Assembly: GCA_022560555.1 (NCBI GenBank)
Contig: JADFSZ010000001.1
Coordinates: 1 to 36,005 of the forward strand
Length of the DNA: 36,005 bases
Reading direction: 5' to 3'
Origin: JADFSZ01 sp022560555 [NCBI: PVC group bacterium]
GTDB taxonomy: Bacteria > GCA-001730085 > JADFSZ01
Part shown: positions 2,159-34,971 of the stretch, piece after piece
Layout of the letters: each line of letters starts with the position of its first letter
Numbering within the stretch: position 1 is the first letter of the stretch
Notes under the pieces: model-generated
What the model was told of the DNA's origin: nothing
Seen by the model: the letters and a program-made list of their open reading frames with translations, nothing else
Database searches by the model: none
Program-made: the position numbers and the translations under genes

Positions 2159-2167
2159 AGATGGCCT
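2148..2167 (+). other. Hairpin enclosing the stop codon of short nfeD
   Basis: A perfect 8-bp stem, AGGCCATC (2148-2155) with GATGGCCT (2160-2167), has a four-base loop TAAA that contains the TAA stop (2156-2158). No U-tract follows, so it is not a standard terminator. It could stabilise the nfeD message or uncouple floA translation. Confidence 0.6.
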
Positions 2168-2226
2168 AGTTCGTAGTTGGGAGTAAAAATCTCCGAACCC
2201 CGAACTCTTAACTCTAAACTCTTAAA
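2167..2226 (+). repeat. Degenerate 7-bp tandem repeat before floA
   Basis: The second half (2192-2226) is five consecutive 7-bp units of type TCCGAAC or TCTTAAC, with neighbours matching at 4 to 6 of 7 positions. The first part (2167-2187) holds about three more units of type TAGTTCG. The array fills nearly the whole gap between short nfeD and floA and ends just before the floA ribosome site. Similar arrays with other unit sequences recur elsewhere in the window. Confidence 0.7.
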
Positions 2227-2237
2227 AGGAGCTCATC

Positions 2238-3254
2238 ATGCCCGTGTTATTTATTTTACTCGCCATCCTGATCGTTATGGGAATCATCTTTTTAAAATTC
2301 TTCAAGCTCTGGCTGCAAGCCTTACTCTCCAACGCACCCGTGGCTTTATTCAGCCTTATCGGAATGAGTCTAAGGAAAGTAAACCCAACGATCATCGTAA
2401 ACGCACGTATCACAGCCCTCAAGGCCGGCATACCCGTTGAGACGAATGATCTTGAAGCTCACTACTTGGCGGGCGGAAATGTTATCCGGGTTGTTCAAGC
2501 CCTGATCGTGGCCAACAAAGCCAATATGGAATTGTCCTGGAAACAAGCAACCGCCATCGATCTTGCCGGGCGTGACATTCTCCAAGCCGTTCAAGCCAGC
2601 GTCAAACCAATCGTCATTGACTGCCCCGCTTCCGACAGTCCTAACTCGACGATAGCCGCTGTAGCTATGGATGGCATCCAGATAAAAGCGAAAGCTCGTG
2701 TAACAGTCCGGACGAATTTACAGCGCCTGGTGGGAGGCGCAACAGAAGAAACCATCATCGCCCGTGTCGGTGAAGGGATTGTTTCAACCATTGGAAGTTC
2801 AGAATCATATAAAAAGGTTCTTGAAAATCCGGACCTCATTTCCAAAAATGTCTTATCCAAGGGATTAGACGCCGGAACCGCGTTTGAGATAGTGTCTATC
2901 GACATCGCCGATGTCGATGTCGGAGCCAATATTGGGGCCGACCTGCAAACACAACAGGCAGAAGCCGATAAACGAATCGCACAAGCACGTGCTGAGAGCC
3001 GGCGAGCCATGGCAGTTGCTGAAGAACAGGAAATGATAGCCAGGGCTCAGGAAATGCGCGCGAAGGTCATCGAGGCCGAAGCTCAGATTCCTAAAGCCAT
3101 ATCTCAAGCTTTTATAGACGGAAATCTCGGTGTTATGGACTACTACAATCTCAAGAACATCCAATCTGATACCGGCATGAGAGACTCAATTTCAAAAGGC
3201 ACAAAAAGCGATAAGAAGAAGTCGGATCTTGAAGACGAAGGCAAAACTAAATAG
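2238..3254 (+). CDS. floA: FloA flotillin-like scaffold protein
   Basis: This 338-residue protein matches the FloA (former UPF0365/YqfA) family: an N-terminal membrane hairpin at about residues 1-45, an SPFH-like domain at about 50-230, and a charged Ala/Glu-rich helical region at about 235-290. The family forms oligomeric scaffolds in functional membrane microdomains. The length fits the usual 330 or so residues. The last 25 residues are Lys/Asp/Glu-rich and look family-variable. A good ribosome site, AAAGGAG, lies about 7 bases before the ATG. The preceding nfeD genes support the assignment. Confidence 0.94.
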
Positions 3255-3445
3255 GAACGGAAATATTATTTGTGACAAGTGAAGCACAAAACAGGCTTCA
3301 TCCTAAGTCTGGAACCCTATAAGGCCAATTTTCCCATGAGCAAAGCTCCTGAAAAAATTGACACAAGCTTTCAGGGTTGCCAATCCAGGATGAACCCGTG
3401 CATGGTTTCAACGTGGGTCTGGAACCTGACAAGCCCGTGCATAAT
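3255..3445. other. Intergenic stretch with a 10-bp direct repeat
   Basis: This gap between convergent floA and the lipoprotein gene holds no convincing gene. GTCTGGAACC occurs at 3307-3316 and again at 3417-3426, each followed shortly by an AAG-GCC-like element. CCCGTGCAT also occurs twice (about 3394 and 3433), and TTCATCCT near 3297 has an inverted copy near 3387. It may be a decayed repeat element, but I do not recognise it. Confidence 0.35.
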
Positions 3446-3470
3446 TTTAGAAGAGCTTCGCTCTTCTAAA
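3446..3470. terminator. Bidirectional terminator hairpin
   Basis: A perfect 11-bp inverted repeat, TTTAGAAGAGC (3446-3456) with GCTCTTCTAAA (3460-3470), has a TTC triloop. It sits between convergent genes, immediately after the lipoprotein stop (3473-3475). The A/T-rich ends provide short U-tracts in both directions, so it probably serves both floA (+) and the lipoprotein gene (-). Confidence 0.65.
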
Positions 3471-3472
3471 CA

Positions 3473-3940
3473 TTAGGCGTTCGAGAAGCGAAGATTATCG
3501 GAAGGCCAGGCCTGTCGATCGGGGCCGAGAAATCCAACAGCCGCTATGGTCCCTTTCTGATCGTTCCCATAGATTACAAGTTGTTTGCCAGAGAAATCAT
3601 TCGTGGTTTTTTTAGAAAGGCCAATGTCATCTGGTAATTTTGGGCCCCGGTAGGCATGATACACATCTTCACCTTCCGATTTTGACGGAGGCCAAAGAGC
3701 CGCGGCATACGCAGTAAATAAGAATTCAATGAAATCCGACGGTCTTTTTTCAGGATAAAGAGATACAAATACTGTCGCCTTAATATTCTTCGGCTCCAAC
3801 ATAGTTTCTACAACTCTGGCCGCCTGTTCAAATTCTGCCTCCCCTCTCCCCTTCTTTTCGCACCCCGAACTTAAGAGAACAAGCACGATCAAGAAAATCA
3901 TGCGAGCAGATCTTAACATCACATTATGAGTCCGATTCAT
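3473..3940 (-). CDS. Putative lipoprotein of unknown function
   Basis: I do not recognise a family for this 155-residue protein. It starts with a basic n-region, a hydrophobic run (IFLIVLVLL) and a lipobox ending in SSGC, so Cys27 would be lipidated after signal peptidase II cleavage. The mature part is short, soluble and mixed in charge, and begins EKKGRGEAEF. A start at the internal Met8 would still give a normal lipoprotein signal, and neither start has a clear ribosome site. The gene stands alone on the minus strand with its own likely promoter near 4093-4120 and a hairpin terminator after the stop. Confidence 0.65.
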   Translation of the reverse strand: MNRTHNVMLRSARMIFLIVLVLLSSGCEKKGRGEAEFEQAARVVETMLEPKNIKATVFVSLYPEKRPSDFIEFLFTAYAAALWPPSKSEGEDVYHAYRGPKLPDDIGLSKKTTNDFSGKQLVIYGNDQKGTIAAVGFLGPDRQAWPSDNLRFSNA

Positions 3941-4092
3941 GGATAATATTTTTTGCTTTCCGAAACGCTGGATTCAGCCCGGTTTCTCTCTATGAGTCAA
4001 AGTCCTTATGATATGCGGGGGCCTTCATCGCTTGAACACCCTATTTTGGGTTGCTTGCGACATTATAAAATTTGATTTCATCTATGTCAATT

Positions 4093-4120
4093 ATTATCAC
4101 GTTTGGCCAATTTTTGTCAA
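4093..4120 (-). promoter_or_regulatory. Putative sigma70 promoter for the lipoprotein gene
   Basis: On the minus strand TTGACA (complement of 4115-4120) and GATAAT (complement of 4093-4098) are separated by 16 bp. The spacer contains the palindrome TTGGCCAA. The predicted transcript would have a leader of about 145 bases before the start codon at 3940. Confidence 0.45.
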
Positions 4121-4218
4121 TATACACAAGATTAAACACTCAAACATATCGATTTACACAAAAAATAGGTCGATTTCATCTCTCGCCTGTTTTAATATTT
4201 CATGAAATTGGAATTTTC

Positions 4219-4247
4219 TTGCTAAATGCGAATTTTTCGAGTATATT
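4219..4247 (+). promoter_or_regulatory. Putative sigma70 promoter for the DUF423 operon
   Basis: TTGCTA (4219-4224) and TATATT (4242-4247) are spaced by 17 bp. The predicted start near 4254 gives a leader of about 25 bases before the ATG at 4280. Confidence 0.6.
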
Positions 4248-4279
4248 CTTGAAAAAATGAACAAAAATGATTACAGACA

Positions 4280-4672
4280 ATGTATCTTTCTAAAATTATG
4301 CAAATTTTCGGCGCTTTCGGAGCCTTTGGAGCTGGCTTAGGTGTAGTCCTGGGAGCTTTTGCCGCGCATGGGCTCAAGGCAAAAATTTCACCTGAACAGC
4401 TCGCTATTTTTGACACCGGTGTCCGCTATCAAATGATTCATTCTTTAGCCCTTATCCTTGTGGTATGTCTTCAGGGGCGTCTAGACGAATTCTGGCTCAA
4501 GGGAGCGGGATTTGGTTTCATCCTGGGAATCCTCATCTTTTCGGGAAGCCTCTACCTTCTCGTATTCACGCATACAAAAACATGGGGGGCTGTCACACCC
4601 ATTGGCGGTATCTTTTTTATTTTAGCCTGGGCCGCGCTTTTTATGGGTTTTGTAAGGACCTCATCGCTATGA
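4280..4672 (+). CDS. DUF423 small membrane protein
   Basis: This 130-residue protein has four hydrophobic segments at about residues 8-28, 50-65, 75-95 and 104-124. It carries the family hallmarks GAFAAHGL near the first helix and YQMIHSLALI, which identify DUF423 (YgdD/YwdK-type) inner-membrane proteins of unknown function. The length is normal for the family. Its TGA overlaps the next ATG as ATGA at 4669-4672, so translation is probably coupled to the DUF4202 gene. Confidence 0.9.
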   Translation: MYLSKIMQIFGAFGAFGAGLGVVLGAFAAHGLKAKISPEQLAIFDTGVRYQMIHSLALILVVCLQGRLDEFWLKGAGFGFILGILIFSGSLYLLVFTHTKTWGAVTPIGGIFFILAWAALFMGFVRTSSL

Positions 4673-5271
4673 ACAAACCCCAAGAATCTGTTTGTTTTCA
4701 AAAAGCAATAGCCCTCATTGATGAGGAAAATCAGCTAGATCCCAGACAAGAAATTTTAGAGCAGGGGTCTTTTGGATTTGAGTATCTTTACTCTGATCAT
4801 GTCACTCGTTGGATGTATCGGATCACAGATAATCCCGGAGAAAGTCTTTTACTCGCAGCACGAGCCATCCACATTCGCCGCTGGGAAAAACCTCGAAACA
4901 CATTTCCGATGGATCGAAAGGGTTATCGCCAGTGGCGCAGAACTTTAGCTCTATTTCATGCGGACATAACAAAAGACATCCTCCGGCAAACCGGATACGG
5001 TGAACAAACAATCACAGAGGTCACGGATCTCATCACAAAGAAACACTTCCCCAAACATCCGGACAGCCAAATACTAGAAGATGCTCTAACCCTCGTATTT
5101 TTGGAGACCCAGCTTTCGGACTTTATTCAAAAGACCGATCATGATAAAGTCATTGGTGTCATACAGAAAACGTGGAAAAAAATGTCCGATCAGGCCCACA
5201 CGCTTGCCATGGACATTGCCTATGATCCAAACACAAAAACGATCCTGACAGAAGCGCTCAACAAGGAATAG
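4669..5271 (+). CDS. DUF4202 protein
   Basis: This 200-residue soluble protein has the DUF4202 pattern: [21 protein letters not shown] and a later [13 protein letters not shown] segment. The conserved His, Arg, Asp and Glu residues suggest a metal- or phosphate-binding helical fold, but no function is established. The frame stays open upstream into the DUF423 gene. ATG 4669 is preferred because the homologous part starts there and it forms an ATGA overlap with the previous stop. Malate dehydrogenase follows after 8 bp. Confidence 0.85.
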
Positions 5272-5279
5272 TCAAGAAA

Positions 5280-6272
5280 ATGGAAAATGGACTTATACGT
5301 ATTCGTGTTGCCGTTACGGGAGCCGCGGGGCACATCGGGTATGCGCTTCTTTTTCGTATCGCGTCCGGCGCCATGTTCGGTCCTAAAACCGAGATTGATT
5401 TAAACCTACTGGAATTGCCGAATGTTCTATCGGCTTTAGAGGGCGTTCAAATGGAGCTGGATGACTGCGCTCTGCCCCTGCTTCGTTCCGTGACAGTCAC
5501 GGCTGATGAAAATATTGCTTTTAAGGATTGCGATTGGGCCTTACTCATCGGATCTGTTCCCAGAAAAGCCGGTATGGAAAGAAAAGATCTTCTCTCTATC
5601 AACGGAAAAATTTTTATCGGCCAAGGCAAGGCTCTGGATCGATTTGCCAAGCCGACATGCAAAGTACTCGTTGTCGGAAATCCTTGTAACACTAACGCCT
5701 GGATCCTAAAAAGCGTTATGAAAACAATTCCCGCAACCAATGTTTTTGCGATGACGATGCTGGATCAAAACCGGGCTAAATTTCAATTGGCTCTCAAAGC
5801 CGGCGTTCATCCCCATGATGTCACGCACATGGCCATTTGGGGCAATCATTCGAGCACACAGTTTCCGGATTTTTATCATGCTCGTATTTCCTTAAACCCC
5901 GTAACGGACGTGATTGGAGATCTAACATGGCTCCAAAATGATTTTATTAAGACCGTACAGCAGCGCGGGACGGCCATTATAAAAGCGCGAGGAACCTCTT
6001 CAGCCGCATCCGCGGCCAATGCTGTTGTTGATACCGTCAAAAATCTGATCACCCCCACACCGGAAGGGCACTTTTTTTCTGTAGCCGTTTCTTCCGACGG
6101 CAGTTACTCTACACCTGTTGGCCTGATGGTTGGTTTTCCTGTACGTATGTCGGGATCTAACTGGGAAATCGTTCAAAATATCGAGCATAATGAATTTGCA
6201 AAGAAAAAGATCAGTTTGACCATTACGGAGCTTGAAGAAGAAAGAGATGCCGTTAAGGATCTCATTAGCTAA
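5280..6272 (+). CDS. mdh: Malate dehydrogenase
   Basis: This 330-residue cytosolic enzyme interconverts malate and oxaloacetate with NAD(H). It belongs to the LDH/MDH superfamily, MDH type 2 (cytosolic-type) branch. The Rossmann loop GAAGHIG is at residues 14-20. The substrate-binding MERKDLL has R101, followed by GNPCNTNA. The catalytic pair is D162 (LDQNRA, with R165) and H190 (IWGNHSS). All key residues are present and the length is typical. It lies 8 bp after the DUF4202 gene and is probably in the same operon. Confidence 0.96.
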
Positions 6273-6338
6273 ATCTTAATTGTTATTTGAATGTTGGATT
6301 TTTCATATGCGTTTTATTATCAGTTTTTTTGGTTTTAC

Positions 6339-6373
6339 CATTTGTCACTTGTCATTCGGATTTTGTCATTTTT
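6339..6373 (+). repeat. Degenerate 7-bp tandem repeat before ygfZ
   Basis: Five 7-bp units begin with CATTTGT and CACTTGT and fill the space just before the ygfZ start. The block at 6351-6371 matches 34942-34962, near the other end of the window, at 19 of 21 positions. Reading through it in frame with ygfZ gives a hydrophobic signal-like peptide, but that is more likely a by-product of T-rich repeats. Confidence 0.65.
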
Positions 6374-6379
6374 AATATC

Positions 6380-7054
6380 ATGCCTTTATATCAGCTCAAT
6401 AAATCCGTATACCTCCTCTCCCCCCATACAGAGGAATTTATCCAGGGGCTTTCTTCAAACACGATCCACACCCCTCACAATGCTTTTCTTGATATTCACG
6501 GAAAAATCGTTGTGACCTTTGGGCAAATTCTAAGGGACGCCGATCATCTACTGTTTGCGATCGAGAAATCCTTTGAAGAGAAACTTCAAAATCATTTAAA
6601 ACCTTTTCTTGATTTGTCAGATACAGAACTCACGGCAGAGCCTTGGTTCACTTATTTTGATCTTGAAGGAAAATCCCCTTTAGAAGACGGAGATTTAAGC
6701 ATCCCCGAGAAAGAAGGACGCATGATACTGTCCAAAAACAAAAAAGATGCGGGAATATCTCAAGATGAGTTCACGCTTTGGCGCGTTAAAAACAACATCC
6801 CCATGCAAGGGATAGATTACCACCATGAGATGCTTCTCAATGTGGATGATGTTACTTATGTATCATTCACGAAGGGATGTTTTCTAGGCCAAGAAATCAT
6901 CTCCCGCGTTCACAACAAATCCCGTCCACCGAGTAAGCTCGTCGTGAAATACCTAGAAGAATGCACACCCGAAGAGGCTGTAAAGTTAACATCCCGCGTC
7001 AAAGACCCTGATACAAGTAAAGAGATGGGGTTTGTGTTTGTGAAAAATAAATAA
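6380..7054 (+). CDS. ygfZ: YgfZ/GcvT-like folate-binding protein
   Basis: YgfZ proteins use a tetrahydrofolate-binding GcvT-like fold to help maintain or repair Fe-S enzymes. The family signature K-G-C-[YF]-x-G-Q-E appears here as TKGCFLGQEIISR. With start ATG 6380 the protein has 224 residues. That is shorter than the roughly 300 of E. coli YgfZ, and the C-terminal barrel looks reduced. The frame is open upstream to a TTG at 6287, but the extra residues are encoded by a T-rich heptad repeat and are unlikely to be a real signal peptide. Several Fe-S enzymes lie nearby (ThiC, BioB, QueG), which fits the role. Confidence 0.85.
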   Translation: MPLYQLNKSVYLLSPHTEEFIQGLSSNTIHTPHNAFLDIHGKIVVTFGQILRDADHLLFAIEKSFEEKLQNHLKPFLDLSDTELTAEPWFTYFDLEGKSPLEDGDLSIPEKEGRMILSKNKKDAGISQDEFTLWRVKNNIPMQGIDYHHEMLLNVDDVTYVSFTKGCFLGQEIISRVHNKSRPPSKLVVKYLEECTPEEAVKLTSRVKDPDTSKEMGFVFVKNK

Positions 7055-7061
7055 CCCGGAT

Positions 7062-7673
7062 CTACCGAAGGAATGGATTAGTCTTTTTCTGATGTGCCAA
7101 TGTGTCGTACGGCAAGGAATGGTAGTTATGACCCGGATAAATTATCGTTTCGTCGGGTAAGGGAAAGATTTTACTCCGAATGGATTTCAAAAGTGTATCC
7201 TGATCTCCCCCGGGTAAATCCACACGGCCGCAGGAATCAATGAACAAGGTGTCACCGGCTAAAAGATGTCCGGGTGTGTAAAAACAGATACCGCCCGGTG
7301 TATGTCCCGGTGTATGAAGACATGTCACTGAAATAGCCCCAATAGTAATCGTGTCTTGGTCTCGCAGGTTTTTAAGTTCCTTAATGTTGGGTCGGTAATA
7401 CGGGGCCTCTTCTTGAGAAAGATAAACCGGAACAGGAAAGTATTCTAAAATCTGCTCCAACGCATCGATATGATCCGGATGTCCATGTGTGAGTAAAATC
7501 TTTGTAATATTGAGTCCCAAACGTTCGGCTTCAAGCCGAATCGCGGGGGCCTCCCAACCCGCATCGACCAAAGCCGCTTCTTTAGAGGAATCATCTCCAA
7601 GAAAATAGAGAAAATTCTGCATGGGACCCAGTTCCATTTGGTGAATCAACACCCCGTTTGTTTTTTCTGTCAC
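7062..7673 (-). CDS. Metallo-beta-lactamase-fold hydrolase (GloB/YcbL-like)
   Basis: This 203-residue single-domain MBL hydrolase has the complete zinc set: THGHPDH (H63, H65, D67, H68), HTPGHT (H124), GDTLF (D141) and the final YPGH (H182). The size and motif spacing match the YcbL/glyoxalase II-like group, which hydrolyses thioesters such as S-lactoylglutathione-type substrates. The actual substrate cannot be told from sequence. The start is GTG at 7673, supported by GGGAG about 5 bases upstream. The gene converges on ygfZ with a 7-bp gap and has a divergent promoter shared with the thioredoxin-like gene. Confidence 0.9.
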   Translation of the reverse strand: MTEKTNGVLIHQMELGPMQNFLYFLGDDSSKEAALVDAGWEAPAIRLEAERLGLNITKILLTHGHPDHIDALEQILEYFPVPVYLSQEEAPYYRPNIKELKNLRDQDTITIGAISVTCLHTPGHTPGGICFYTPGHLLAGDTLFIDSCGRVDLPGGDQDTLLKSIRSKIFPLPDETIIYPGHNYHSLPYDTLAHQKKTNPFLR

Positions 7674-7703
7674 GATCTCCCTTTTAATGTATGATTCAGT
7701 ATC

Positions 7704-7731
7704 ATTATAAATTAAAATCGGAGTAAATCAA
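7704..7731 (-). promoter_or_regulatory. Putative sigma70 promoter for the MBL hydrolase
   Basis: On the minus strand TTGATT (complement of 7726-7731) and a perfect TATAAT (complement of 7704-7709) are spaced by 16 bp, about 30 bases before the GTG start. It lies back-to-back with the plus-strand promoter at 7737-7764. Confidence 0.65.
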
Positions 7732-7736
7732 TCGGC

Positions 7737-7764
7737 TTGACAGGCCCATTCTCCAATCTATAAT
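7737..7764 (+). promoter_or_regulatory. Consensus sigma70 promoter for thioredoxin-like/FIST pair
   Basis: Perfect TTGACA (7737-7742) and TATAAT (7759-7764) hexamers are separated by 16 bp. This is the strongest promoter match I found in the window. Predicted transcription starts near 7771. Confidence 0.8.
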
Positions 7765-7800
7765 GACCCTTTAACCCATGATTTGCATTGGACGGATTTG

Positions 7801-8352
7801 ATGTCTCTCTTAGAATCACTCCAGATTCCCTTAGGAACGCATATTACCCCATTTATCCTCAAAGATCCGGAGGGAACGGTACATACAAGTGATCGGCTCT
7901 TTGGAAGCAAAGGGCTTCTTGTCGCGTTTACCTGTAATCATTGCCCTTATGCTGTTGCCGTATGGCCCCGATTTATCAGGCTGTCCCACGGGGCCAAAGA
8001 ACTTTGTATCAACACAGTCGCGATCAATCCTAATATTCATCCAAATTACCCCGAGGACGCTCCCGAAAAAATGACGCAAAAAATTAAAGAATGGCGGATC
8101 CCTTTTCCTTATTTAGTCGATGAATCCCAAGAAGTGGCACGAACCTTTAAGGCCCAATGCACGCCGGATATCTATCTTTTTAATTCACACAAAAAACTTG
8201 TATATCACGGCCGTATCGATGACAGCTGGAAAGATGAATCCCTGGTCAAGCAAGAAGAATTAAAAACCGCTATCACCCAATTAGCGAACGAAGAGAAAAT
8301 TTCCTCCAAACAATTCCCTTCTATGGGCTGCTCGATCAAATGGAGGAATTAA
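7801..8352 (+). CDS. Thioredoxin-family peroxiredoxin-like protein
   Basis: This protein of about 183 residues has a thioredoxin/AhpC-TSA fold. It contains FTCNHCPYA with C45 and C48 (C-x-x-C-P) and the C-terminal PSMGCSIKWR, both hallmarks of the CNHCPY thioredoxin-like family. It probably acts as a cytosolic thiol oxidoreductase or peroxidase. The frame is open to a TTG at 7783, which would add six residues. ATG 7801 is preferred because GGACGG lies at ribosome-site distance. The FIST gene begins 4 bp after the stop, so the pair is likely cotranscribed. Confidence 0.85.
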   Translation: MSLLESLQIPLGTHITPFILKDPEGTVHTSDRLFGSKGLLVAFTCNHCPYAVAVWPRFIRLSHGAKELCINTVAINPNIHPNYPEDAPEKMTQKIKEWRIPFPYLVDESQEVARTFKAQCTPDIYLFNSHKKLVYHGRIDDSWKDESLVKQEELKTAITQLANEEKISSKQFPSMGCSIKWRN

Positions 8353-8355
8353 AAC

Positions 8356-9543: not shown

Positions 9544-9589
9544 AGCTAATCTTATCTATGCATTACAAAATTATCACTGTTCGTTTTCC

Positions 9590-9618: not shown

Positions 9619-9655
9619 GCCTTTATAATAGGTAGTTTGTGAAGAAACTAAAGCC

Positions 9656-10018: not shown

Positions 10019-10055
10019 TCCTCTCCTGGCCCACACCATTAAATCTCGTTAATGT

Positions 10056-10123: not shown

Positions 10124-11968
<1,845 letters not shown>

Positions 11969-11974
11969 AAAAAG

Positions 11975-12044
11975 TTTCTAGCTTCTGGTTTTTTGTAGTT
12001 GTTTGTGTGTTGTCACACTATTTACTATTTTACAAATTACGGTA
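11975..12044 (+). repeat. Degenerate 7-bp tandem repeat before bioB
   Basis: About ten 7-bp steps can be laid out between thiC and the bioB start. The clearest are two identical ACTATTT units (12017-12030) and TTTCTAG/CTTCTGG (11975-11988). Other units match only 3 or 4 of 7. The array occupies the whole gap apart from a few bases at each end. Confidence 0.5.
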
Positions 12045-12047: not shown

Positions 12048-13139
12048 ATGGATCGTTCCTTTTATACCCAACTGGCCTCTAACAGCATCCAAGAGATCTC
12101 TCCCGATACGGACATCTCTCTTAGAATCCTTCGTGATCCGTCCCTAGAACTCTTACCCCTTCTTGACGCGGCTTTTGAAGTCCGTAAAAAATTTACAGGT
12201 AAAGAAGTTGCCATTCACATCATCAACAATGCGCAAAACGGCTTTTGTCCCGAAGATTGTCATTACTGCGCTCAGGCAAAAACATCCCGGGCAGATATTG
12301 ATGAGTATCCCACAAAGTCGGATGATGAGATTCTCGAAGAAGCTCGGATCGCGTATGAGTCCGGGGCGTTTCGATATTGCCTTGTTTATGCCGGACGAGG
12401 CCCCAGTCATAAAAGGGCATTGCATATCGCCGGCTTGATTCGATCAATCAAAGAGAAGTATCCCCTCCAGGTCTGTGTATCCGCAGGTCTCATGGACAAA
12501 TACAATATTAAAGTTCTCAAAGAGGCCGGCCTAGACCGACTTAATCATAATTTAAATTCTTCGGAAAGTTTTTACCCTAAAATTTGCTCCACACACACGT
12601 ATCAGGACCGTCTCAACACTTTGAAAGCCGCCCGTGACGCTCAATTGGAAATTTGTTCCGGCATGATCGCCGGAATGGGAGAAACACCCAAAGATATTGT
12701 CGAAGTGGCCCAAACGCTTCTTGAGCTGAAAGCTCCTTCGATCCCAATCAATTTTCTTATACCGATCGAAGGGAATGTTCTTGGGGCCCCTCAGGGTCTC
12801 ACTCCCGAATATTGTTTACGCATATTGTGTCTGTTTCGGTTTATAAATCCCAAATCCGAAATCCGGGCGGCCGCGGGTCGCGAAGGGCATTTGCGTTCGA
12901 TGGAAGTCATGGCGCTTTACCCGGCCAACTCGATTTTTATGGAAGGATATCTGAATACATTGGGGCTTGATCGATCGCGTGTCCTCCGGATGATACAAGA
13001 TGCCGGATTCACGATTAAAGGCGCCCTTTCTCTCGATGATCTGATAGACAAAGAAAATCAAAACTCCGGCTTTCATATCGATGGAACTCAGTCGTTTATG
13101 AAATCATTAAACGATCTTCGCCCCGTAAAACAACCCTGA
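12048..13139 (+). CDS. bioB: Biotin synthase
   Basis: BioB is a radical-SAM enzyme that inserts sulfur into dethiobiotin. With start ATG 12048 the protein has 363 residues. It has the 4Fe-4S motif C-x3-C-x2-C at C67, C71 and C74, and the auxiliary 2Fe-2S ligands C111, C143, C203 and R273. The NHNLN motif matches Bacillus-type BioB rather than E. coli NHNLD. The frame is open to a TTG at 12003, but those residues are encoded by a heptad repeat and are not expected in BioB. bioA, bioD and bioF are absent from the window. The gene follows thiC after 79 bp. Confidence 0.93.
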   Translation: MDRSFYTQLASNSIQEISPDTDISLRILRDPSLELLPLLDAAFEVRKKFTGKEVAIHIINNAQNGFCPEDCHYCAQAKTSRADIDEYPTKSDDEILEEARIAYESGAFRYCLVYAGRGPSHKRALHIAGLIRSIKEKYPLQVCVSAGLMDKYNIKVLKEAGLDRLNHNLNSSESFYPKICSTHTYQDRLNTLKAARDAQLEICSGMIAGMGETPKDIVEVAQTLLELKAPSIPINFLIPIEGNVLGAPQGLTPEYCLRILCLFRFINPKSEIRAAAGREGHLRSMEVMALYPANSIFMEGYLNTLGLDRSRVLRMIQDAGFTIKGALSLDDLIDKENQNSGFHIDGTQSFMKSLNDLRPVKQP

Positions 13140-22705: not shown

Positions 22706-22747
22706 AATTTAAATGTTAAGTTTCAAGATTCTAAAAACAATAAATGC
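22706..22747 (-). repeat. Degenerate 7-bp tandem repeat before GGCT-like gene
   Basis: About six AT-rich 7-bp units lie in the gap just upstream of the GGCT-like start, for example GTTTCAA and GATTCTA (5 of 7 identical). Low complexity makes this less certain than the arrays at 30016, 31026 and 2192. Confidence 0.4.
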
Positions 22748-23659: not shown

Positions 23660-23697
23660 AAAAAAGTAAATGCGGCATCCCAAAGACTGCCGCACTT
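23660..23697 (-). terminator. Rho-independent terminator after the cold-shock gene
   Basis: On the minus strand a 10-bp stem (complement of 23688-23697 with 23668-23677, one G-U pair, GC-rich core GCGGCA) is followed by a run of six T. It lies 23 bp after the cold-shock stop and is a textbook intrinsic terminator. Confidence 0.9.
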
Positions 23698-23719
23698 CCT
23701 TAATTTTGCGATATGTTCT

Positions 23720-23932
23720 CTACTGCTGAAGAGTAACGTCTTGGGCTTGCAGCCCCTTTTCTCCTTCTGCAACGGTAAATTCGACTTTTTGTCCTTCTTC
23801 GAGAGACTTGTAACCATCCCCGCTAATGGCCTTAAAATGCACGAAGACATCGCTGCCTTGTTCTCGTGTGATAAAACCATAACCCTTAGAAGAATTGAAC
23901 CATTTTACAGTACCTTGCTCACGCTCTGCCAT
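23720..23932 (-). CDS. Cold-shock protein (CspA family)
   Basis: This 70-residue single cold-shock domain binds single-stranded RNA and DNA and acts as an RNA chaperone. RNP1 (KGYGFI) and RNP2 (DVFVHF) are intact, preceded by GTVKWFN. The length is standard. The ribosome site is strong (GGGGGTG about 8 bases before the ATG). The gene has its own promoter, a long structured leader and a strong terminator, so it is a monocistronic unit, as usual for csp genes. Confidence 0.97.
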
Positions 23933-24091
23933 AGATATTCACCCCCTTACCTTCGCTTGGTTCTGACCTGGACAGAGCGTTCGCGACCAGTTGCATAGGG
24001 AATGCGTGATACTGCAACTCTTTGGGTCCTGCTGCACACTGCAATTTCTGTACTGCGCCATAAAACCTCTGCCGTTACTAAAATAAACAAC
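23933..24091 (-). promoter_or_regulatory. Long structured leader of the cold-shock gene
   Basis: The predicted transcript carries about 159 untranslated bases. A 7-bp perfect stem, AGTTGCA (23989-23995) with TGCAACT (24013-24019), is visible, with further GC-rich pairing possible. Long structured leaders are typical of csp genes, where they can act as RNA thermometers. That role is inferred here. Confidence 0.5.
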
Positions 24092-27571: not shown

Positions 27572-27574
27572 CCC

Positions 27575-28612: not shown

Positions 28613-29168
28613 AACGTATCTTTTTTGTTCCGTCATTAATGATGAGCTTCAAGCGCACGGCTAAAGGCATTTTCTCTTCACTCCAGCGTTCCAGCCACAC
28701 ATAATTATTTGTCTCAGTATCGTATTTATAGTATTCAAAAGAGGCGGCTTCAATGTTTTCTAATTCGGATGATATTTCCCCGTCTTTGCCGCGGTATAAC
28801 ATGGAAATATCCTTAAATGCCCTTGTTAAGGTTTTATTCCGCGCGTCATACGTGTAACTGACTTGGCCGATGGTTTTTACCTCAAACTCTTTTGTGTAAA
28901 CAATTGTTGGACATTCAAATAACGTTTTTTGGCCGACAAATTGAATACTTGAATATGCATAGCTGTTTCGAATGTCTTCGGAATATCTTTCTAAAAAAAT
29001 GTTGGCATTTTCTAGAGAGACCTCGTTTTGAACTCGGCCCCAGATCATAATCCCCTTAGAAAGCGTTGTGTAAATGACAACACTCACAACCCCCAACAGG
29101 GATACGACTAAAAGAAGCTCGATGAGCGTCAGGCCTTTAGAATTCCGGACTTTCTTGATAATACGCAT
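28578..29168 (-). CDS. gspJ: Minor pseudopilin GspJ
   Basis: This 196-residue protein has a type IV prepilin leader of 12 residues (cleavage after KG) and the mature start LTLIE with Glu5, followed by a hydrophobic helix of about 20 residues and a globular domain. Size and position between the gspI-like and gspK genes point to GspJ, a tip pseudopilin that binds GspI and GspK. The 5' end overlaps gspI by 32 bp and the 3' end overlaps gspK. Confidence 0.82.
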   Translation of the reverse strand: MRIIKKVRNSKGLTLIELLLVVSLLGVVSVVIYTTLSKGIMIWGRVQNEVSLENANIFLERYSEDIRNSYAYSSIQFVGQKTLFECPTIVYTKEFEVKTIGQVSYTYDARNKTLTRAFKDISMLYRGKDGEISSELENIEAASFEYYKYDTETNNYVWLERWSEEKMPLAVRLKLIINDGTKKIRYAKTVSILSGG

Positions 29169-29571
29169 AAGCTGTTCTTTCTATGTGAAATTCTCTTGTC
29201 TGGTTTTGACGCTCCCGATTTATATAAAATGAAACTTGAAATAGTAATTTTTTTCTGTCTTTGAGCTTATAATTAAGATTCCACGGATACTTGTCAACAC
29301 CAACAATAAGCGTACCGCTTGTGCGCATCTGAGGCCCCAGACTGCCATATCTCATAAGCTGGTTTTGGGCTTCCCAAATTTTCTCATCCACCCAGGGCAT
29401 AACGTTCAGGTAGTCTTTATAGTGACTTAAAAGATCTATATTCACAAAAAATGTTTGAAAGATGGAAACAATCCCCATAGACAATATGGAAACGGCAACC
29501 AGTATTTCGACTAAAGTAAAACCGCTTTTTCGCCCATCTTTTTTTCTAGTCCTTCCAATTCCGCACATCAT
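29137..29571 (-). CDS. gspI: Minor pseudopilin GspI (PilV-like)
   Basis: This protein of about 144 residues has a prepilin leader ending KSG before FTLVEILVAVSIL, with Glu5 present, and a small globular domain. GspI nucleates the pseudopilus tip. ATG 29571 is preferred over the frame's first ATG (29592) because GAGGAAAG lies about 6 bases upstream. This start overlaps the gspG end by 26 bp. PilV is an alternative family name, but the G-I-J-K order supports GspI. Confidence 0.82.
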   Translation of the reverse strand: MMCGIGRTRKKDGRKSGFTLVEILVAVSILSMGIVSIFQTFFVNIDLLSHYKDYLNVMPWVDEKIWEAQNQLMRYGSLGPQMRTSGTLIVGVDKYPWNLNYKLKDRKKLLFQVSFYINRERQNQTREFHIERTAYAYYQESPEF

Positions 29572-30061
29572 CGTCACTTTCCTCAATACCATCTTTGCCT
29601 ATGGAATAGAGATCATAATCCTTGCGATGATCTCCCGGGCTTTTATACTGATACGGACGCCCCCAGGGGTCGGTAATGTCTGTTTCTAAATAGGGACCGT
29701 GCCAGTTGGAGGCAGAGGCGGTTTTGCTAAGGAGGGCGCTTAAGCCTTCTGATGTAGACGGAAACGCTCCGTTATCCAGTTCATAGAGTTTGAGCGCTGT
29801 CGCAATATTAGCCTTAATGTCGGCTTCAGCAATAGTCACACGGGCCTGCTCGCTGCGCCCGGTGAGACGGGGCATCACCATCGCGGCTAAAGCACCGATG
29901 ATAATTACAACGAGCAAAAGCTCAACAAGGGTAAAACCCTGTTGATGGCGAAAGCCATTAACAGATCGGAGTTTTGATTTTTGCTTCACAGTATGCTTTC
30001 GATTTTGTCTTACATCTGTCGACTGTTGACTGTCGACTATTGACCCAAAAATATTTGTCAT
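29546..30061 (-). CDS. gspG: Major pseudopilin GspG with extended leader
   Basis: GspG polymerises into the pseudopilus that pushes substrates through the outer membrane. After the cleavage site (QQG) the mature start FTLVELLLVV has Glu5. The C-terminal part shows the GspG hallmarks DPWGRPYQY and YDLYSIGKDG. The ATG at 30061 has an excellent site (AAGGAG about 9 bases upstream), giving a 171-residue protein whose leader is 42 residues. That is much longer than the usual 5-10. Residues about 7-16 of the leader are encoded by a 7-bp tandem repeat. No later Met precedes the cleavage site. Confidence 0.93.
   Translation of the reverse strand: MTNIFGSIVDSQQSTDVRQNRKHTVKQKSKLRSVNGFRHQQGFTLVELLLVVIIIGALAAMVMPRLTGRSEQARVTIAEADIKANIATALKLYELDNGAFPSTSEGLSALLSKTASASNWHGPYLETDITDPWGRPYQYKSPGDHRKDYDLYSIGKDGIEESDDDVRNWKD
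30016..30043 (-). repeat. 7-bp tandem repeat translated in the gspG leader
   Basis: Four 7-bp units on the plus strand (CTGTCGA type, neighbours 5-6 of 7 identical) lie inside the start of gspG. Four units add 28 bp, which is not a multiple of three, so gain or loss of one unit would shift the frame. Confidence 0.75.
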
Positions 30062-30075
30062 TTCGTTTTCTCCTT

Positions 30076-30990
30076 TTACGAGCTTAATTTTTCTTCTAAA
30101 TACTCCCGCCATCGTTCTTCAAATTCATCCAAATTTTTCATTTTATTCGGGTACGCACTTTGAAGAGCCTCCTCGAGTTTTTTGCCGTCCCGCAGCTCAC
30201 GGCAAAACTGGGTAAATCTTTTTGCGCCGAACCGATCGATCATAAAGTTAATCATAGCCACGGATTCCAAATAATATGTTTTGACGAGACTCTCAACATC
30301 CAGGAAAAGGGCCGCCATTTTACCTTCCCGCGTTTTCGTGGCTCGAATATATATCCGATCCATATCCTTCAAAAGGCGAATATCGAGTTTCATCATGTCT
30401 TCAATACTGAGAAGTTTGTCCTCTTTATAATATTCCATGGCTGTTTGGCTCATGTATTCTCTCTTGGATTCTTCCGCCCATTGCGCCACTCCTTCATCCA
30501 GCCAGAGAGGAATCTCCCCTTTAAATCCCACAAAATCACGGAAAATCAAATGCGCCATTTCATGAGGCAGCAAGGATTCCACAAACCCTTCTCCCCAGGC
30601 ATAGCTGACGATTTGTTTGTGCGTATAATCAGCCATGCCATGCGACCATTCAGGCTGATCGGTCGCTTGAATAAAGGCCTTATGATCGGCAAAGATATAA
30701 ATCGGAACACGGTTATCCCATGTCCAAAAACCCGAATATCTCGGATAACCGAGTCCTTGAGCGATCCGCACATAATATTTTTCGGCTTTATCAAGTACGT
30801 TCTTGGCAAACTTGTCGTCATCCGTATAATATACAAAAAAATGTTCCCCGCTCACTTTCTTCCAGTCATAATTATCCAGGCTGACACGAATAGCTCCTTT
30901 CTGCCCGGCAAAGAGATCGCTCGTGTGGCCCAGGGCTAACAACAAAGCGCCCGCAATCCATATACTTTTCAATTGATGCATATGTTTCAT
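30076..30990 (-). CDS. Secreted peptidase MA-like metalloprotease
   Basis: This 304-residue protein has an N-terminal signal peptide (hydrophobic WIAGALLLALG, likely cleavage near FAGQ) and a gluzincin-type core: HEMAH at residues 143-147, with H143 and H147 as zinc ligands and E144 as catalytic base, and the third ligand E166 in LWLDEGVAQW. This matches the peptidase MA-like group. It sits inside the secretion operon between gspF and gspG, with 14 bp to the gspG start. It could be a substrate, a pseudopilin or secretin quality-control protease, or an assembly factor. Confidence 0.85.
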   Translation of the reverse strand: MKHMHQLKSIWIAGALLLALGHTSDLFAGQKGAIRVSLDNYDWKKVSGEHFFVYYTDDDKFAKNVLDKAEKYYVRIAQGLGYPRYSGFWTWDNRVPIYIFADHKAFIQATDQPEWSHGMADYTHKQIVSYAWGEGFVESLLPHEMAHLIFRDFVGFKGEIPLWLDEGVAQWAEESKREYMSQTAMEYYKEDKLLSIEDMMKLDIRLLKDMDRIYIRATKTREGKMAALFLDVESLVKTYYLESVAMINFMIDRFGAKRFTQFCRELRDGKKLEEALQSAYPNKMKNLDEFEERWREYLEEKLSS

Positions 30991-31025
30991 TCACGTTCAC
31001 TAAATTGCATGTAAACGGTTCACAG

Positions 31026-31067
31026 TTTTCGATTTTCAGTTTTTGGTTTTCGGTTATCGGTCAACGA
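31026..31067 (-). repeat. 7-bp tandem repeat between gspF and the peptidase gene
   Basis: Five clear plus-strand units (31026-31060, TTTTCGA to TTATCGG, neighbours 5-6 of 7 identical) and a weaker sixth lie directly after the gspF stop. The array makes up about half of the gap before the peptidase gene. Confidence 0.75.
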
Positions 31068-31068
31068 A

Positions 31069-32280
31069 CTACATATTGATTTCAAATATTGGCAAAAGCA
31101 TCGCCATGACTATAAAACCCACTATGAGGCCCATGAAAAGGATAATGAGAGGCTCCATGAGATTGGCTAATATGCGTGACACCTCATCCGTATCGCGCTC
31201 ATAACTTGAGGCCACCTCACTTAAGGCTTCATCCAAAGATCCGGTCTCTTCACCTACAATAAGGAGATTGGTCATAAAAAGAGGAAAAACTTTGACGTCT
31301 TTGAGGCTTTCACCAAGAGGACTGCCGCGTTCCAATTGTTCATAACTCGTTTTTAGCGCGTTTTTCAGAACCTCATTTTTGAGAACCGGTATTGACACAT
31401 CGAGCGCCTTGAGAATCGTGATTCCGTTTCGAATCAAAATCTCAAGTGTCCGCGCAAAACGTGATATCTCGGATTTGAGAATAAATTCTCCGTAAATCGG
31501 AAGTTTTAGTTGGAATCGGCCGAAAGAAAGTTTTCCTGATTCTGTTTTAAGGCTCCGGCTAATGACCATACCGAGAAACACACAAGCAATAAGTATCCAA
31601 AGCCACCAGTCTTGGAGAAAAGTGCTGATGTCAATCAAAATTCTTGTCGGCATCGGGAGCTCTTGTCCCGTCCGGATAAACATCTCGGCCAATTTCGGCA
31701 CAACATAGCTCAACATAAAAATGACGGTTCCGAGTCCAACAAACGCCATCAGCGAGGGATAAACCATCGCCATCCGTAAACGAGCCATCAAAGCATGCTG
31801 TTTTTCCCGGTAATCTGAGATACGCATTAAGGCTTCAGGAAGAGATCCGCTGTTTTCTCCGGCATGAACAATCGAGATATACAAGGATGGGAAAACCTTC
31901 GGATACTTTTCTAAGGCCGAAGAAAAGGTTCCTCCGTCTTCAACAATGTCATGAATATCATTCAGCATAAAATTGAGACTTGCCTTGTCCGCCTGCTCGG
32001 CAATAATGGATAAGGCCCTGAGAATGGGGACCCCGGACTTAAGAAGGCTGGCCATCTGACGGCTAAAAAGCGTAATCTGCCTGTGTTTAATCCTTCCCGG
32101 CTTGATTTTGCTGATTTCTTTCGGAGGCTGAGTTTTGTTCTCTTCTTTTTTTTCCAGCTTAATGGGAAGCAAGCCAAGAGCGTTAATTTTTTCTACGGCA
32201 TCCTGCTCGTTATCGGCCTCGATTTGTCCGTCAATAACGTTTTGGGTATCTTTTTTCGCGCGGTAATGAAAAGTAACCAT
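31069..32280 (-). CDS. gspF: Type II secretion inner-membrane protein GspF
   Basis: GspF is the polytopic platform protein of the machine. The 403-residue protein has an N-terminal cytoplasmic domain (FHYRAKK, with a typical G-x-I-E-A-D-x-x-x-A stretch) and two T2SF repeats at about residues 70-195 and 275-395, each with GENSGSLPEAL- or GEETGSLDEAL-type motifs. Three membrane helices lie near 170-195, 225-245 and 375-397. The length is standard. The start is 1 bp after the gspE stop, so the two are translationally linked. Confidence 0.96.
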   Translation of the reverse strand: MVTFHYRAKKDTQNVIDGQIEADNEQDAVEKINALGLLPIKLEKKEENKTQPPKEISKIKPGRIKHRQITLFSRQMASLLKSGVPILRALSIIAEQADKASLNFMLNDIHDIVEDGGTFSSALEKYPKVFPSLYISIVHAGENSGSLPEALMRISDYREKQHALMARLRMAMVYPSLMAFVGLGTVIFMLSYVVPKLAEMFIRTGQELPMPTRILIDISTFLQDWWLWILIACVFLGMVISRSLKTESGKLSFGRFQLKLPIYGEFILKSEISRFARTLEILIRNGITILKALDVSIPVLKNEVLKNALKTSYEQLERGSPLGESLKDVKVFPLFMTNLLIVGEETGSLDEALSEVASSYERDTDEVSRILANLMEPLIILFMGLIVGFIVMAMLLPIFEINM

Positions 32281-32281
32281 A

Positions 32282-34465
32282 TCACTCGTTCAGATCGGAA
32301 TCAATATACCGATTCAATTTTGCTCTGTCAGCACTTGCAATATCTAAATAACAAACGGCAATATCATACGTTTTGTTCGAAACATCTTCATCAACACGAA
32401 CAGCTTTCGCGAGACAGACAATAGGATTTTCGTCACCTTCCAATTCAACCTTAAGATCCAGTAAAGAACCGATCGCAACGGGTTTATGTGCCACAAACAA
32501 AATCCCTCCAGCAGATACATTTTTTGTGACCGCTAACTGCTCAGGCTTAAACACCCCTTTAATCAATTCGTCATGAGATTTGTAAACTTTGTAAGAAATA
32601 TTCAGGTTCCGGGCCAATCTAGAATAATTACGCCGCCCCTGAACATTTTCGCTTGATTCATCGCTAAGGGTACTAGGCGGTGGAGATCCCTTGGTCGGCC
32701 TCGTTCCTGTTGCAATGGCTGTTCTCACAGGCACCCCGGGATCCACTATGGGTGTAACCTGCATGATTTCTTCCGCAGTTGTGACACCTTGGACAACTTT
32801 CTGCCAACCGTCTTGTCTTAAAACACGCATACCTTTTTGGATGGCAACACGTTTGATATGGCTGGACGATGTTTTTTTAATAATCAAATCTTTGATTTCA
32901 TCATCCACAAGCAATATCTCGTAGATCGCTACACGGCCAAAAAAACCAGTAAAATTGCAATTGGGGCACCCTTTCCCTCGATAAATTTTCATATTCGCGT
33001 CTTTCAGCCCTAAATCCCGGGCCAGGGTTTCTTTGAGTTCTTTCGGTGTGATTTTGTCTTCATATTTACAATCGGAACAGATCATACGTATCAGTCTTTG
33101 AGCGATAAAGGCTTCCACGCTTGAGGCTACGAGATAGGGCTCCACGCCGATGTCCACAAGACGCGTAATACCGCTCGACGCGTCATTCGTATGAAGAGTG
33201 GAAAATATCAGATGTCCCGTCAAAGCCACGCGAATAGCGATGGAAGCCGTCTCAAGGTCTCTCACTTCGCCCACCATGATCACATCGGGGTCATGCCGCA
33301 AGATACTTCTCAGCCCCCGCGCGAAATCAAGTCCGATTTCAGACATAACCTGCATCTGTGTAATCCCCTTCATTTCATATTCCACGGGATCCTCGATGGT
33401 GATAATTTTACGTTCTCTTGTGTTAATGCGATTCAAACAGGAATAAAGAGTGGTTGTTTTTCCGCTTCCCGTGGGGCCCGTGAGAAATACAATGCCGTGG
33501 GGTTTTTGTATCAGGCTTTCAAAGACTCTTAATTCCGCCATGGCTAGACCCAGCTTTTCCAAACTGAACAGACGACTGCTCGGCAACATTCTCACGACGA
33601 CACTCTCTCCGAAAGGCGTGGGAACAGTGGAGATACGCAAGTCCAAAACATCGTCCTGAACTTTCACCATGGCGCGTCCATCTTGCGGCAATCGCCTCTC
33701 AACAATGTTCAAGCTGGACATAATTTTAATGCGTGAAATAATCGCGTTAATATTTTTTTTGACGCCGGGTGAAATATTTGTCTCATAAAGAAGCCCGTCG
33801 ATACGGTACCTTAAAGATACACCGCCGCGAAACGGCTCAATATGAATATCCGTCGCGCGTTTACGCCATCCTTCTAAAATGATTTGATTCACGAGCTTGA
33901 TAACAGACTCATCATCAGCTAGATCCTCTAAATCCGTAAGCTCGTCTTTCTCTTGTGCCTTTGAGTCCTTTTTCGAGGCAGTCTCCGCAACGACTGACAT
34001 TCTGTCCAAGGTTTCAGCCCCTAAACCATAACTTCTTTTCAATGCTTCCATCATATCTTTTGTCGATGTTAAAACAAACGCGACTTCATAACCGAGCTGC
34101 GTGCGTATCTCATCCTGGGTCTTCAGATCCATGGGGGCATTCACAGCAACAGTCAACGTTCGTCCTTTAATACGCATCGGTAAAAAACGATAGTATGTTG
34201 CGATTTTGACGGGAACAATATCCAGGACTTTCTGGTCTACCTCGGCATTGCGGACATCAACAATTTCAAGCCCAAGCGTATCGGAAAGAACCTGTAAAAT
34301 ATCCGTTTCTTTAATCACTGATTTACTGATAAGGACCTGCTGCAGCGTTGCACCTGATTGACCAATTTCTTTAAGTAAAGGCTCGAGCTTCTCTTTGGAC
34401 AACATGCCTTTTTGCATCAAAGCTTCTAAGAGGACTGTGTCATGTTTTTTCGTGCTTGGCATCAT
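32282..34465 (-). CDS. gspE: GspE ATPase with C-terminal PilZ domain
   Basis: This 727-residue protein is the cytoplasmic secretion motor. The N-terminal GspE_N/MshEN-like domain spans about residues 10-145. The ATPase core has Walker A GPTGSGKTT (330-338), Asp box IEDPVEYE (357-364), Walker B DPDVIMVGEVRD (392-403), His box STLHTND (422-428) and the zinc cysteines C463, C466, C500 and C503. After a Pro/Ser/Thr-rich linker (about 575-608) there is a PilZ-like domain with R612-x3-R616 and N649-V-S-A-G-G654, the c-di-GMP-binding signatures. Normal GspE ends near residue 570, so this is a fusion. The N-terminal MshEN arginine position is changed, so that domain may not bind nucleotide. Confidence 0.95.
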   Translation of the reverse strand: MMPSTKKHDTVLLEALMQKGMLSKEKLEPLLKEIGQSGATLQQVLISKSVIKETDILQVLSDTLGLEIVDVRNAEVDQKVLDIVPVKIATYYRFLPMRIKGRTLTVAVNAPMDLKTQDEIRTQLGYEVAFVLTSTKDMMEALKRSYGLGAETLDRMSVVAETASKKDSKAQEKDELTDLEDLADDESVIKLVNQIILEGWRKRATDIHIEPFRGGVSLRYRIDGLLYETNISPGVKKNINAIISRIKIMSSLNIVERRLPQDGRAMVKVQDDVLDLRISTVPTPFGESVVVRMLPSSRLFSLEKLGLAMAELRVFESLIQKPHGIVFLTGPTGSGKTTTLYSCLNRINTRERKIITIEDPVEYEMKGITQMQVMSEIGLDFARGLRSILRHDPDVIMVGEVRDLETASIAIRVALTGHLIFSTLHTNDASSGITRLVDIGVEPYLVASSVEAFIAQRLIRMICSDCKYEDKITPKELKETLARDLGLKDANMKIYRGKGCPNCNFTGFFGRVAIYEILLVDDEIKDLIIKKTSSSHIKRVAIQKGMRVLRQDGWQKVVQGVTTAEEIMQVTPIVDPGVPVRTAIATGTRPTKGSPPPSTLSDESSENVQGRRNYSRLARNLNISYKVYKSHDELIKGVFKPEQLAVTKNVSAGGILFVAHKPVAIGSLLDLKVELEGDENPIVCLAKAVRVDEDVSNKTYDIAVCYLDIASADRAKLNRYIDSDLNE

Positions 34466-34480
34466 TAAGCTCTTTACTGT

Positions 34481-34936
34481 TTATTTGTATTTTGATTTAA
34501 CATGATCACGGTATCTTTCAATGACATAATCGATATCACTTTTCGTGGTCAATACCAGCTTTACTTTTAGGCCCCGGGCTTCGGCCTCGGCCTTTTGAAG
34601 CACGTCAAGATCCAAGGGATTTGTGAGAGCCATGGTCACAGACACATCGTCTTCAGACACCGGGACACAATGAAAATCCATCACCAACGAAGGACTGTAT
34701 TTCCCCAAAAGCTTCCAGTCCACATATTTATATTTTAACTCAACTATGGGAATAGTAAACTGCTCAGATAAAACGGCTAAAAGCTCACTCTCCTTGATCC
34801 ACCGCTTCTTGAGCAGGATCTCCCCCAGGAACTGATCCGAAATTTTCTGTTCTTTGAGTGCCAAATTTAACTGTTCCGGTTTCAGCATCCCTTTTTCAAC
34901 AAGAATTTCACCGATTTTTTTCTTTTTTCGCTCCAT
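34481..34936 (-). CDS. Standalone MshEN (GspE N-terminal-like) domain protein
   Basis: This 151-residue protein consists only of an MshEN/GspE_N domain. Both repeated motifs are visible: KIGEILVEKGMLKPEQL at about 7-23 and LGEILLKKRWIKESEL at about 37-52. The second half resembles the GspE N-terminal alpha/beta part. MshEN domains of the MshE type bind c-di-GMP. The motif here is closer to consensus than in the neighbouring GspE. It lies 15 bp before gspE and could act as a separate nucleotide sensor or decoy subunit. It is 20 bp after atpD. Confidence 0.85.
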   Translation of the reverse strand: MERKKKKIGEILVEKGMLKPEQLNLALKEQKISDQFLGEILLKKRWIKESELLAVLSEQFTIPIVELKYKYVDWKLLGKYSPSLVMDFHCVPVSEDDVSVTMALTNPLDLDVLQKAEAEARGLKVKLVLTTKSDIDYVIERYRDHVKSKYK

Positions 34937-34943
34937 CTTTAGT

Positions 34944-34971
34944 CATTTGGATTTCGTCATTTGTTATTGAT
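34944..34971 (-). repeat. 7-bp tandem repeat at the atpD end
   Basis: Units of type CATTTGG and CATTTGT lie at 7- and 14-bp steps, between and partly inside the atpD 3' end and the MshEN gene. The last few AtpD codons and stop fall in the array. The block 34942-34962 matches 6351-6371 at 19 of 21 positions. Confidence 0.6.

Follow-up and report, generated by a model that had tools for sequence, protein, structure and literature searches.

The window, that is, the whole 36,005-nt stretch of DNA analysed here, contains short tandem arrays with a period of 7 bp, which are located between or within protein genes and not in 23S rRNA; a tRNA was the sole match in an Rfam search of the window. The earlier note had named seven such stretches, one of them as possible. 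Each stretch was scored singly against its own first-order Markov shuffles. Three of the seven stood out from chance (2192-2226, 30016-30043 and 31026-31067), while 6339-6373, 11975-12044, 34944-34971 and 22706-22747 did not. The features are as follows (TRF, Tandem Repeats Finder).

2168..2184, + strand: short G-rich half-array AGTTCGT AGTTGGG AGT, possibly the left (5') counterpart of the floA array, read from the sequence
2193..2225, + strand: C-rich period-7 array of the CGAACTC family, right-end type, 13 bp upstream of floA; segment score 13.5, P 0.0025
6339..6373, + strand: weak heptad-like stretch GTCACTT GTCATTC ... GTCATTT; P 0.07 alone
11975..12044, + strand: weak heptad-like stretch upstream of bioB, ACTATTT ACTATTT TACAAATTACGGTAAAC; P 0.05 alone
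12845..12865, + strand: period-7 array AAATCCC AAATCCG AAATCCG within the bioB reading frame; TRF score 35, segment score 11.5
22706..22747, no strand assigned: A+T-rich stretch named as possible earlier, indistinguishable from chance; P 0.13
30016..30044, - strand: period-7 array CTGTCGA CTGTTGA CTGTCGA CTATTGA in the leader of a gspG-like prepilin frame; TRF period 7 and 14, equalled by 0 of 2000 shuffles
31026..31067, - strand: period-7 array between the gspF-like and peptidase genes; P 0.002, TRF and segment core 31025-31061
34944..34971, - strand: stretch named earlier, indistinguishable from chance; P 0.37

Tandem Repeats Finder placed period-7 repeats of the window at 2203-2225, 5276-5291, 12845-12865, 30016-30038 and 31025-31061. 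The clean array at 12845-12865 in the bioB frame was absent from the earlier list, and a unit resembling that of the weak stretch at 6339-6373 was seen again at another locus (L102, 2074-2090). It had been claimed that the arrays lie at or just before start codons. This is true of many of them, and some are found within genes, namely in the gspG leader (30016-30044) and in bioB (12845-12865). By-eye translation placed the array at 30016-30044 and two arrays of locus L085 (9330-9351 and 9864-9894) in prepilin-like leader peptides, where they are translated in frame; such leaders are a tolerant coding site for arrays. A role of the arrays as all-frame stop cassettes was dropped, since several of them are read through in prepilin leaders, as judged by eye.

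The G-rich half-array at 2168-2184 pairs with 2190-2207 in a predicted RNA hairpin (z -2.18, with 6 of 200 shuffles equally good). Lying opposite the floA array, it is the one possible inverted partner in the window, and the automatic partner search did not select it. The array at 31026-31067 is C-rich on the transcribed (-) strand and of right-end type; the partner search found no inverted partner for it within 500 bp, and RNA folding of the gap at 31 kb is ordinary (z -0.25 against shuffles). The suggested role in message spacing gained no supporting evidence, the hairpin of the floA gap being the one that folds somewhat better than shuffles (z -2.2).

The genome of the window (G000) comprises 1.66 Mb in 222 contigs and is 91.5% complete, and a relative of the same phylum (G001) was used for comparison. 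Counting arrays with a segment score of at least 10 in 509 kb (61 contigs, 31% of G000), we obtained 33 arrays of period 7, against 0, 3, 6, 4, 2, 1 and 1 for periods 5, 6, 8, 9, 10, 11 and 13, respectively; periods 12 and 14 gave 11 and 16 arrays, 14 being a harmonic. When at least 17 of 21 lag matches were required, 342 kb (41 contigs) contained 17 period-7 arrays; each other period from 4 to 13 gave 0-2, and second-order Markov sequence predicts about 0.3. The genome-wide claim of the earlier note, which was to be given up if period 7 proved no more frequent than periods 6, 8 or 9, survives both counts (33 vs 3, 6 and 4, and 17 vs 2, 0 and 0). In fact, period-7 arrays are real and genome-wide in G000, which belongs with the bacteria carrying heptanucleotide repeats in that period 7 exceeds the neighbouring periods. 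In 466 kb of the relative G001, no period-7 array was found by segment score, and a looser count gave 3 against 1.5 expected. Moreover, 8 of the 33 arrays of G000 are no more than 300 bp away from the end of a contig, against an expectation of 7% (P 0.0017), as would be the case for repeats that break assembly.

Families of similar arrays are dispersed over this genome. The floA array (CCGAACyCCGAACTCTTAACTC) recurs with an identical order of unit variants at five genome places if no more than one mismatch is allowed; allowing up to three raises this to 14 places, spread over 11 contigs, with 0 for a reversed control pattern; its match to the places on contigs C114 and C74 is 89-90%. Another family, GTAAATN, gave 85 pattern matches vs 28 for a control, or 40 sites after grouping. 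Nine neighbouring pairs of GTAAATN sites are within 300 bp of each other, 8 of them pointing inward, 1 the same way and 0 outward, and the inward pairs enclose loops of 29-143 bp. A stricter test covered the 33 sampled arrays: a significant inverted partner was found within 250 bp for 6 of them, located at 4 places, and a direct partner for 3. MITE-like, ORF-less dispersed copies with inverted ends are therefore present in G000 (GTAAATN with 40 sites and 8 inward pairs, CGAACTC with 14 sites). The earlier proposal that one mechanism underlies arrays of equal period but differing units is supported. The accompanying statement that they are not copies of one element is not borne out, given the dispersal of the floA array with the same variant order (14 places) and of GTAAATN (40 sites). 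The arrays resemble the ends of elements and not products of local expansion.

FloA relatives supplied 47 Fibrobacter-type loci, and at 10 of them floA is followed by an insert composed of an array, an ORF and an inverted array. The ORF is 23S_rRNA_IVP (PF05635, E 2e-39 and 3e-36; TIGR02436, "four helix bundle protein"), here referred to as IVP. In the comparison of 41 loci, the insert is present in 10, IVP is absent from this place in 30, and in 1 the next gene was not found; the 30 loci comprise 27 gaps of 3-34 bp and 3 cases (L030, L039 and L043) in which an unrelated insert measures about 270-280 bp. At this one site the units differ between species, and array lengths differ at orthologous sites. 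No target-site duplication was resolved in Fibrobacter, and the insertion point is not fixable to the base because the closest unfilled flanks are just 71-92% identical to the filled ones. At the Fibrobacter loci, 18 of 52 period-7 arrays are within 350 bp of an IVP gene and the others are solitary. By eye, the 34-bp gap after floA at L027 holds scraps of both array types and resembles an excision scar. A left array at L056 (10910-10969) mixes the GAGCTAT and GAGGTTC types of two element lineages and is recombinant-like.

We further surveyed IVP genes across bacteria. Of 192 genomes from across the domain, 70 had PF05635 matches (at most 19 per genome); 14 control genomes had none. The sample examined consisted of 70 IVP loci from 41 genomes, 30 from the PF05635 survey and 40 lower-ranked ones taken by rank with several skipped; 16 of these 70 loci were reversed so that IVP reads forward. 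An array was assigned to an IVP gene if it had a score of at least 8 within 250 bp, and control windows were placed 635-900 bp away. As a result, period-7 arrays were present on the left at 49 loci, on the right at 40 and on both sides at 37, compared with 3 of 65 and 4 of 64 control windows. Period 8 was found on the left at 12, on the right at 12 and on both sides at 8 (L181, L185, L198, L201, L219, L223, L230 and L232), and period 9 at 4, 8 and 3, respectively (both sides including L182 and L206), other periods being rare. Taking the best of periods 7, 8 and 9, we counted arrays on the left at 60 loci, on the right at 54, on both sides at 48 and on either side at 66, and the two sides have the same period in 47 of the 48. 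The corresponding numbers for 297 other ORFs, taken from 20 stretches of genomes that bear IVP, are 29, 31 and 5 (left, right and both), and 1 of 52 small ORFs of such genomes has arrays on both sides. Array period is not closely tied to the kinship of IVP proteins. Away from IVP genes, the density of arrays in IVP-bearing genomes is uneven: 2 of 20 stretches account for 18 of the 28 period-7 arrays counted in 400 kb.

The two arrays of an element also correspond to each other. At two-sided period-7 loci the units match inverted at 5 or more of 7 positions in 31 of 37, compared with 14% between different loci, and 0 of 10,000 permutations reached the observed mean. L172, L188, L196, L200, L207 and L215 do not match inverted; units match in direct orientation at L188 and, with period 8, at L223. 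Flank complementarity has a median of 45 within the same element vs 21 for different elements, and 58 of 79 values exceed the 95th percentile. These data bear on the idea of neutral simple-sequence repeats, in which slippage favours a 7-bp step, gaps tolerate the result and IVP genes are merely located where repeats grow. Units that vary by locus, the variable array lengths at orthologous Fibrobacter sites and a within-array identity constant with distance (0.82, 0.79, 0.80 and 0.80 at 1-4 units) are in keeping with it, and slippage probably makes the tandem units. However, it predicts neither inverted arrays matched in unit and period around one gene family, nor the near absence of array pairs at other genes, nor dispersed copies with the same unit order. 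The IVP association refutes neutral repeats as the whole story, with slippage surviving as a way of unit multiplication, and we regard this explanation as unlikely. Chain copying, in which each unit is made from the previous one, was ruled out by the constant within-array identity.

On the coding strand of IVP loci, left arrays are G-rich (G 655, C 199) and right arrays are C-rich (C 639, G 265). Most arrays have 4-5 units, with medians of 4.4 on the left and 4.7 on the right, and the length of period-7 arrays centres on 31-33 nt. Unit similarity declines with protein divergence, from 0.91 at 80-100% identity (the high-identity pairs being Fibrobacter) to 0.51 below 40%; the arrays therefore travel with the gene. 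On inspection the unit gave the impression of a fixed triplet plus a tetramer; positional variation was just slightly more concentrated (0.40, 0.22 and 0.09) than in a uniform null (0.33, 0.23 and 0.12). The gene upstream of IVP is codirectional in 58 of 66 loci vs 212 of 305 ordinary genes, a modest bias (P 0.005 for the 61 loci at which the two neighbouring genes are known, P 0.02 vs 52 small genes) which suits an element read through by the host operon, or selection against antisense insertion.

The arrays might alternatively be mRNA or DNA sites for a regulator, as in MacGregor's proposal for TAACTGA, IVP being an embedded, self-regulated binder that is not mobile. Many arrays indeed end just upstream of start codons, and the IVP relatives with solved structures, 2gsc and 2rld, each comprise five chains, which together with the usual 4-5 units would suit a ring binding one repeat per subunit, though this is a guess. 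The adjoining genes, however, have no evident common function, close relatives carry differing IVP lineages or no IVP at all in one and the same site, and units change faster than a fixed regulator would permit. We consider such a regulatory origin quite improbable. In addition, the Fibrobacter insert protein has weak Pfam matches to Avd models, with E values of 4.6e-8 and 3.2e-5 that fall short of the cut-off, and with this distant homology of a four-helix-bundle protein IVP could work with a reverse transcriptase, as Avd does in diversity-generating retroelements. Unlike Avd, IVP appears not to need a reverse transcriptase, as judged by co-occurrence: PF00078 was found in 24 of 70 IVP-bearing vs 29 of 122 other genomes (P 0.13), and genome G009, with 19 IVP matches, has no reverse transcriptase. 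G000 likewise has no PF00078 match. Variation within arrays is also without adenine bias (variant rates in left arrays of IVP loci of 0.14 for A, 0.18 for C, 0.10 for G and 0.12 for T). A retroelement is thus the least credible of the explanations, and very improbable.

IVP genes with arrays are also present on named plasmids. A tblastn search found IVP genes on 29 plasmids, chiefly of Nostocales, and 12 of the 14 copies examined of these 29 records have arrays on both sides. As for the two exceptions, the left array of L288 is just below the threshold, and L289 has none passing, with a mixed purine array of 6/7 steps visible. The arrays of L281 are direct and not inverted. The earlier note had compared the window arrays with the heptameter repeats of cyanobacteria, and this kinship is borne out by the same kind of array at IVP genes on cyanobacterial plasmids. 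The host operons include cas6/cas4, cas10/cmr3 and ribonucleotide reductase, the IVP genes of L281, L283, L285 and L286 being within cas and ribonucleotide reductase operons of cyanobacterial plasmids. PF05635 is scored as CRISPR- or immunity-associated in passages of PMC10910872 and PMC10053308, and this association may be explained by insertion into such operons.

A search with PF05635 or alignment A1 gave 0 IVP matches in the 91.5% complete assembly of G000, and PF05635 had 0 matches in G001. One weak match in G000 (L114, E 0.009) was rejected; it is a 55-residue frame with 31 residues aligned and overlaps another gene, which from by-eye reading we take to be serine acetyltransferase. Since no IVP/S23 ORF (PF05635, TIGR02436) was found in G000, the window arrays are not classed as full IVP/S23 elements, and the MITE-like arrays likewise had no matching autonomous IVP partner in that genome in the PF05635 and A1 searches. 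Some other element with the same kind of ends could have made the arrays of G000, their likeness to IVP ends being convergence, and the lack of an IVP gene in G000 and G001 agrees with this. On the other hand, period, length, degeneracy, polarity and inward pairing are all as in IVP ends, and an IVP-bearing genome (at L273) contains, by eye, ORF-less array pairs of the same kind. We think a different element rather improbable.

The window arrays match IVP ends in period, length, degeneracy, polarity and, partly, inward pairing, and are dispersed in families. Given these features and an assembly in which IVP was undetected, we read them, as the probable if far from certain explanation, as ends, shortened copies or remnants of widespread small mobile IVP elements that are IVP-less here. 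For other genomes, the link between IVP and arrays is far better founded than for the window. Several observations count against this reading. No IVP is found in G000, though PF05635 matches 70 of 192 other genomes. Just 6 of 33 arrays of G000 have an inverted partner, and 18 of 52 Fibrobacter arrays are near an IVP gene. Moreover, 6 of 37 IVP loci are not inverted, no target-site duplication was resolved, the sense bias is modest, and period 7 is not in excess at 33 named floA loci of other groups (10 arrays, with 10 and 26 for periods 8 and 9).

The arrays and their dispersal, the array-IVP-array layout, the inverted matching and the loci with and without insert are direct observations, and from them we infer the descent of the window arrays from IVP elements as well as the following course of events. 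A full element consists of an array of a 7-, 8- or 9-bp unit that is G-rich on the coding strand, an IVP/S23 ORF of about 120 aa and a matching inverted array. It is placed between genes, mostly sense to the upstream gene, with the right array ending just before the next start codon; arrays would have been noticed at start codons because the right array of the element ends there. ORF-less derivatives would retain both arrays, pointing inward and separated by a loop of about 30-140 bp, single arrays would be further remnants, and the window's genome as assembled would have ORF-less derivatives only. The IVP protein may recognise the array or its hairpin, slippage may multiply the tandem units, and fold-back copying or conversion between the arms may keep the arrays matched while the unit drifts. 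A broader proposal is more tentative, and we lean somewhat against it as yet. According to this proposal, IVP elements would be a selfish class without transposase or reverse transcriptase, whose drifting array ends are kept complementary by fold-back copying. With their ORF-less offspring, they would be a main source of bacterial heptanucleotide repeats, from cyanobacteria to this rare phylum, and of 23S rRNA intervening sequences.

Several known systems can be compared. First, the 23S rRNA intervening sequence (IVS) also has a single small S23/IVP ORF between inverted repeats. In Coxiella, as described in PMC4990558, tandem heptameric repeats are located just before the S23 start in two or three copies by strain, and the IVS has a 28-bp terminal stem cut by RNase III. 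However, the IVS lies within 23S rRNA, whereas the IVP elements here lie between protein genes with tandem arrays at both ends, and the window's genome has ORF-less forms only. Second, the heptanucleotide repeats (cyanobacterial STRR, GGGAATC and TAACTGA) share with the present arrays the period of 7, the intergenic and often pre-start position and the typical 4 units. According to passages of PMC4692102, heptameric repeats are over-represented in many bacteria, and Mrazek 2007, as quoted there, proposed polymerase slippage, with the 7-bp step corresponding to the stretch of DNA that the polymerase holds. The same source gives 70 and 75 convergent close pairs of GGGAATC arrays in two Xanthomonas genomes (70 in X. 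campestris) and describes these arrays as generally not linked to mobile elements, while TAACTGA of Beggiatoaceae has 169 sets before start codons (PMC4679880). The GGGAATC and TAACTGA reports deal with one unit per genome, whereas the arrays described here have differing units in a single genome and are associated with IVP elements; S23/IVP terms have 0 occurrences within PMC4692102 and PMC4679880. Third, MITEs and REP/BIME are likewise small non-coding inverted repeats, dispersed and presumably mobilised in trans, but the ends here are short tandem arrays with a drifting unit. We found no paper on a general link between IVP and heptad arrays in searches of one open-access library, which lacks most subscription journals and preprints.

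Heptameric repeats without an accepted cause and S23/IVP proteins without a known function are thereby joined, and both gain a testable explanation. If it is true, the repeat is the end of an element and the IVP protein is the first candidate for handling it. It would also account for the repeats before start codons, for the inverted pairs and for the "association" of IVP with CRISPR and other operons, in which it would simply be inserted.

Two minor observations were made by eye. At L119 (7206-7336), heptads are part of a higher-order repeat of about 45 bp. On the minus strand of the window, a cold-shock-protein-like frame at about 23660-23935 overlaps a longer predicted ORF.
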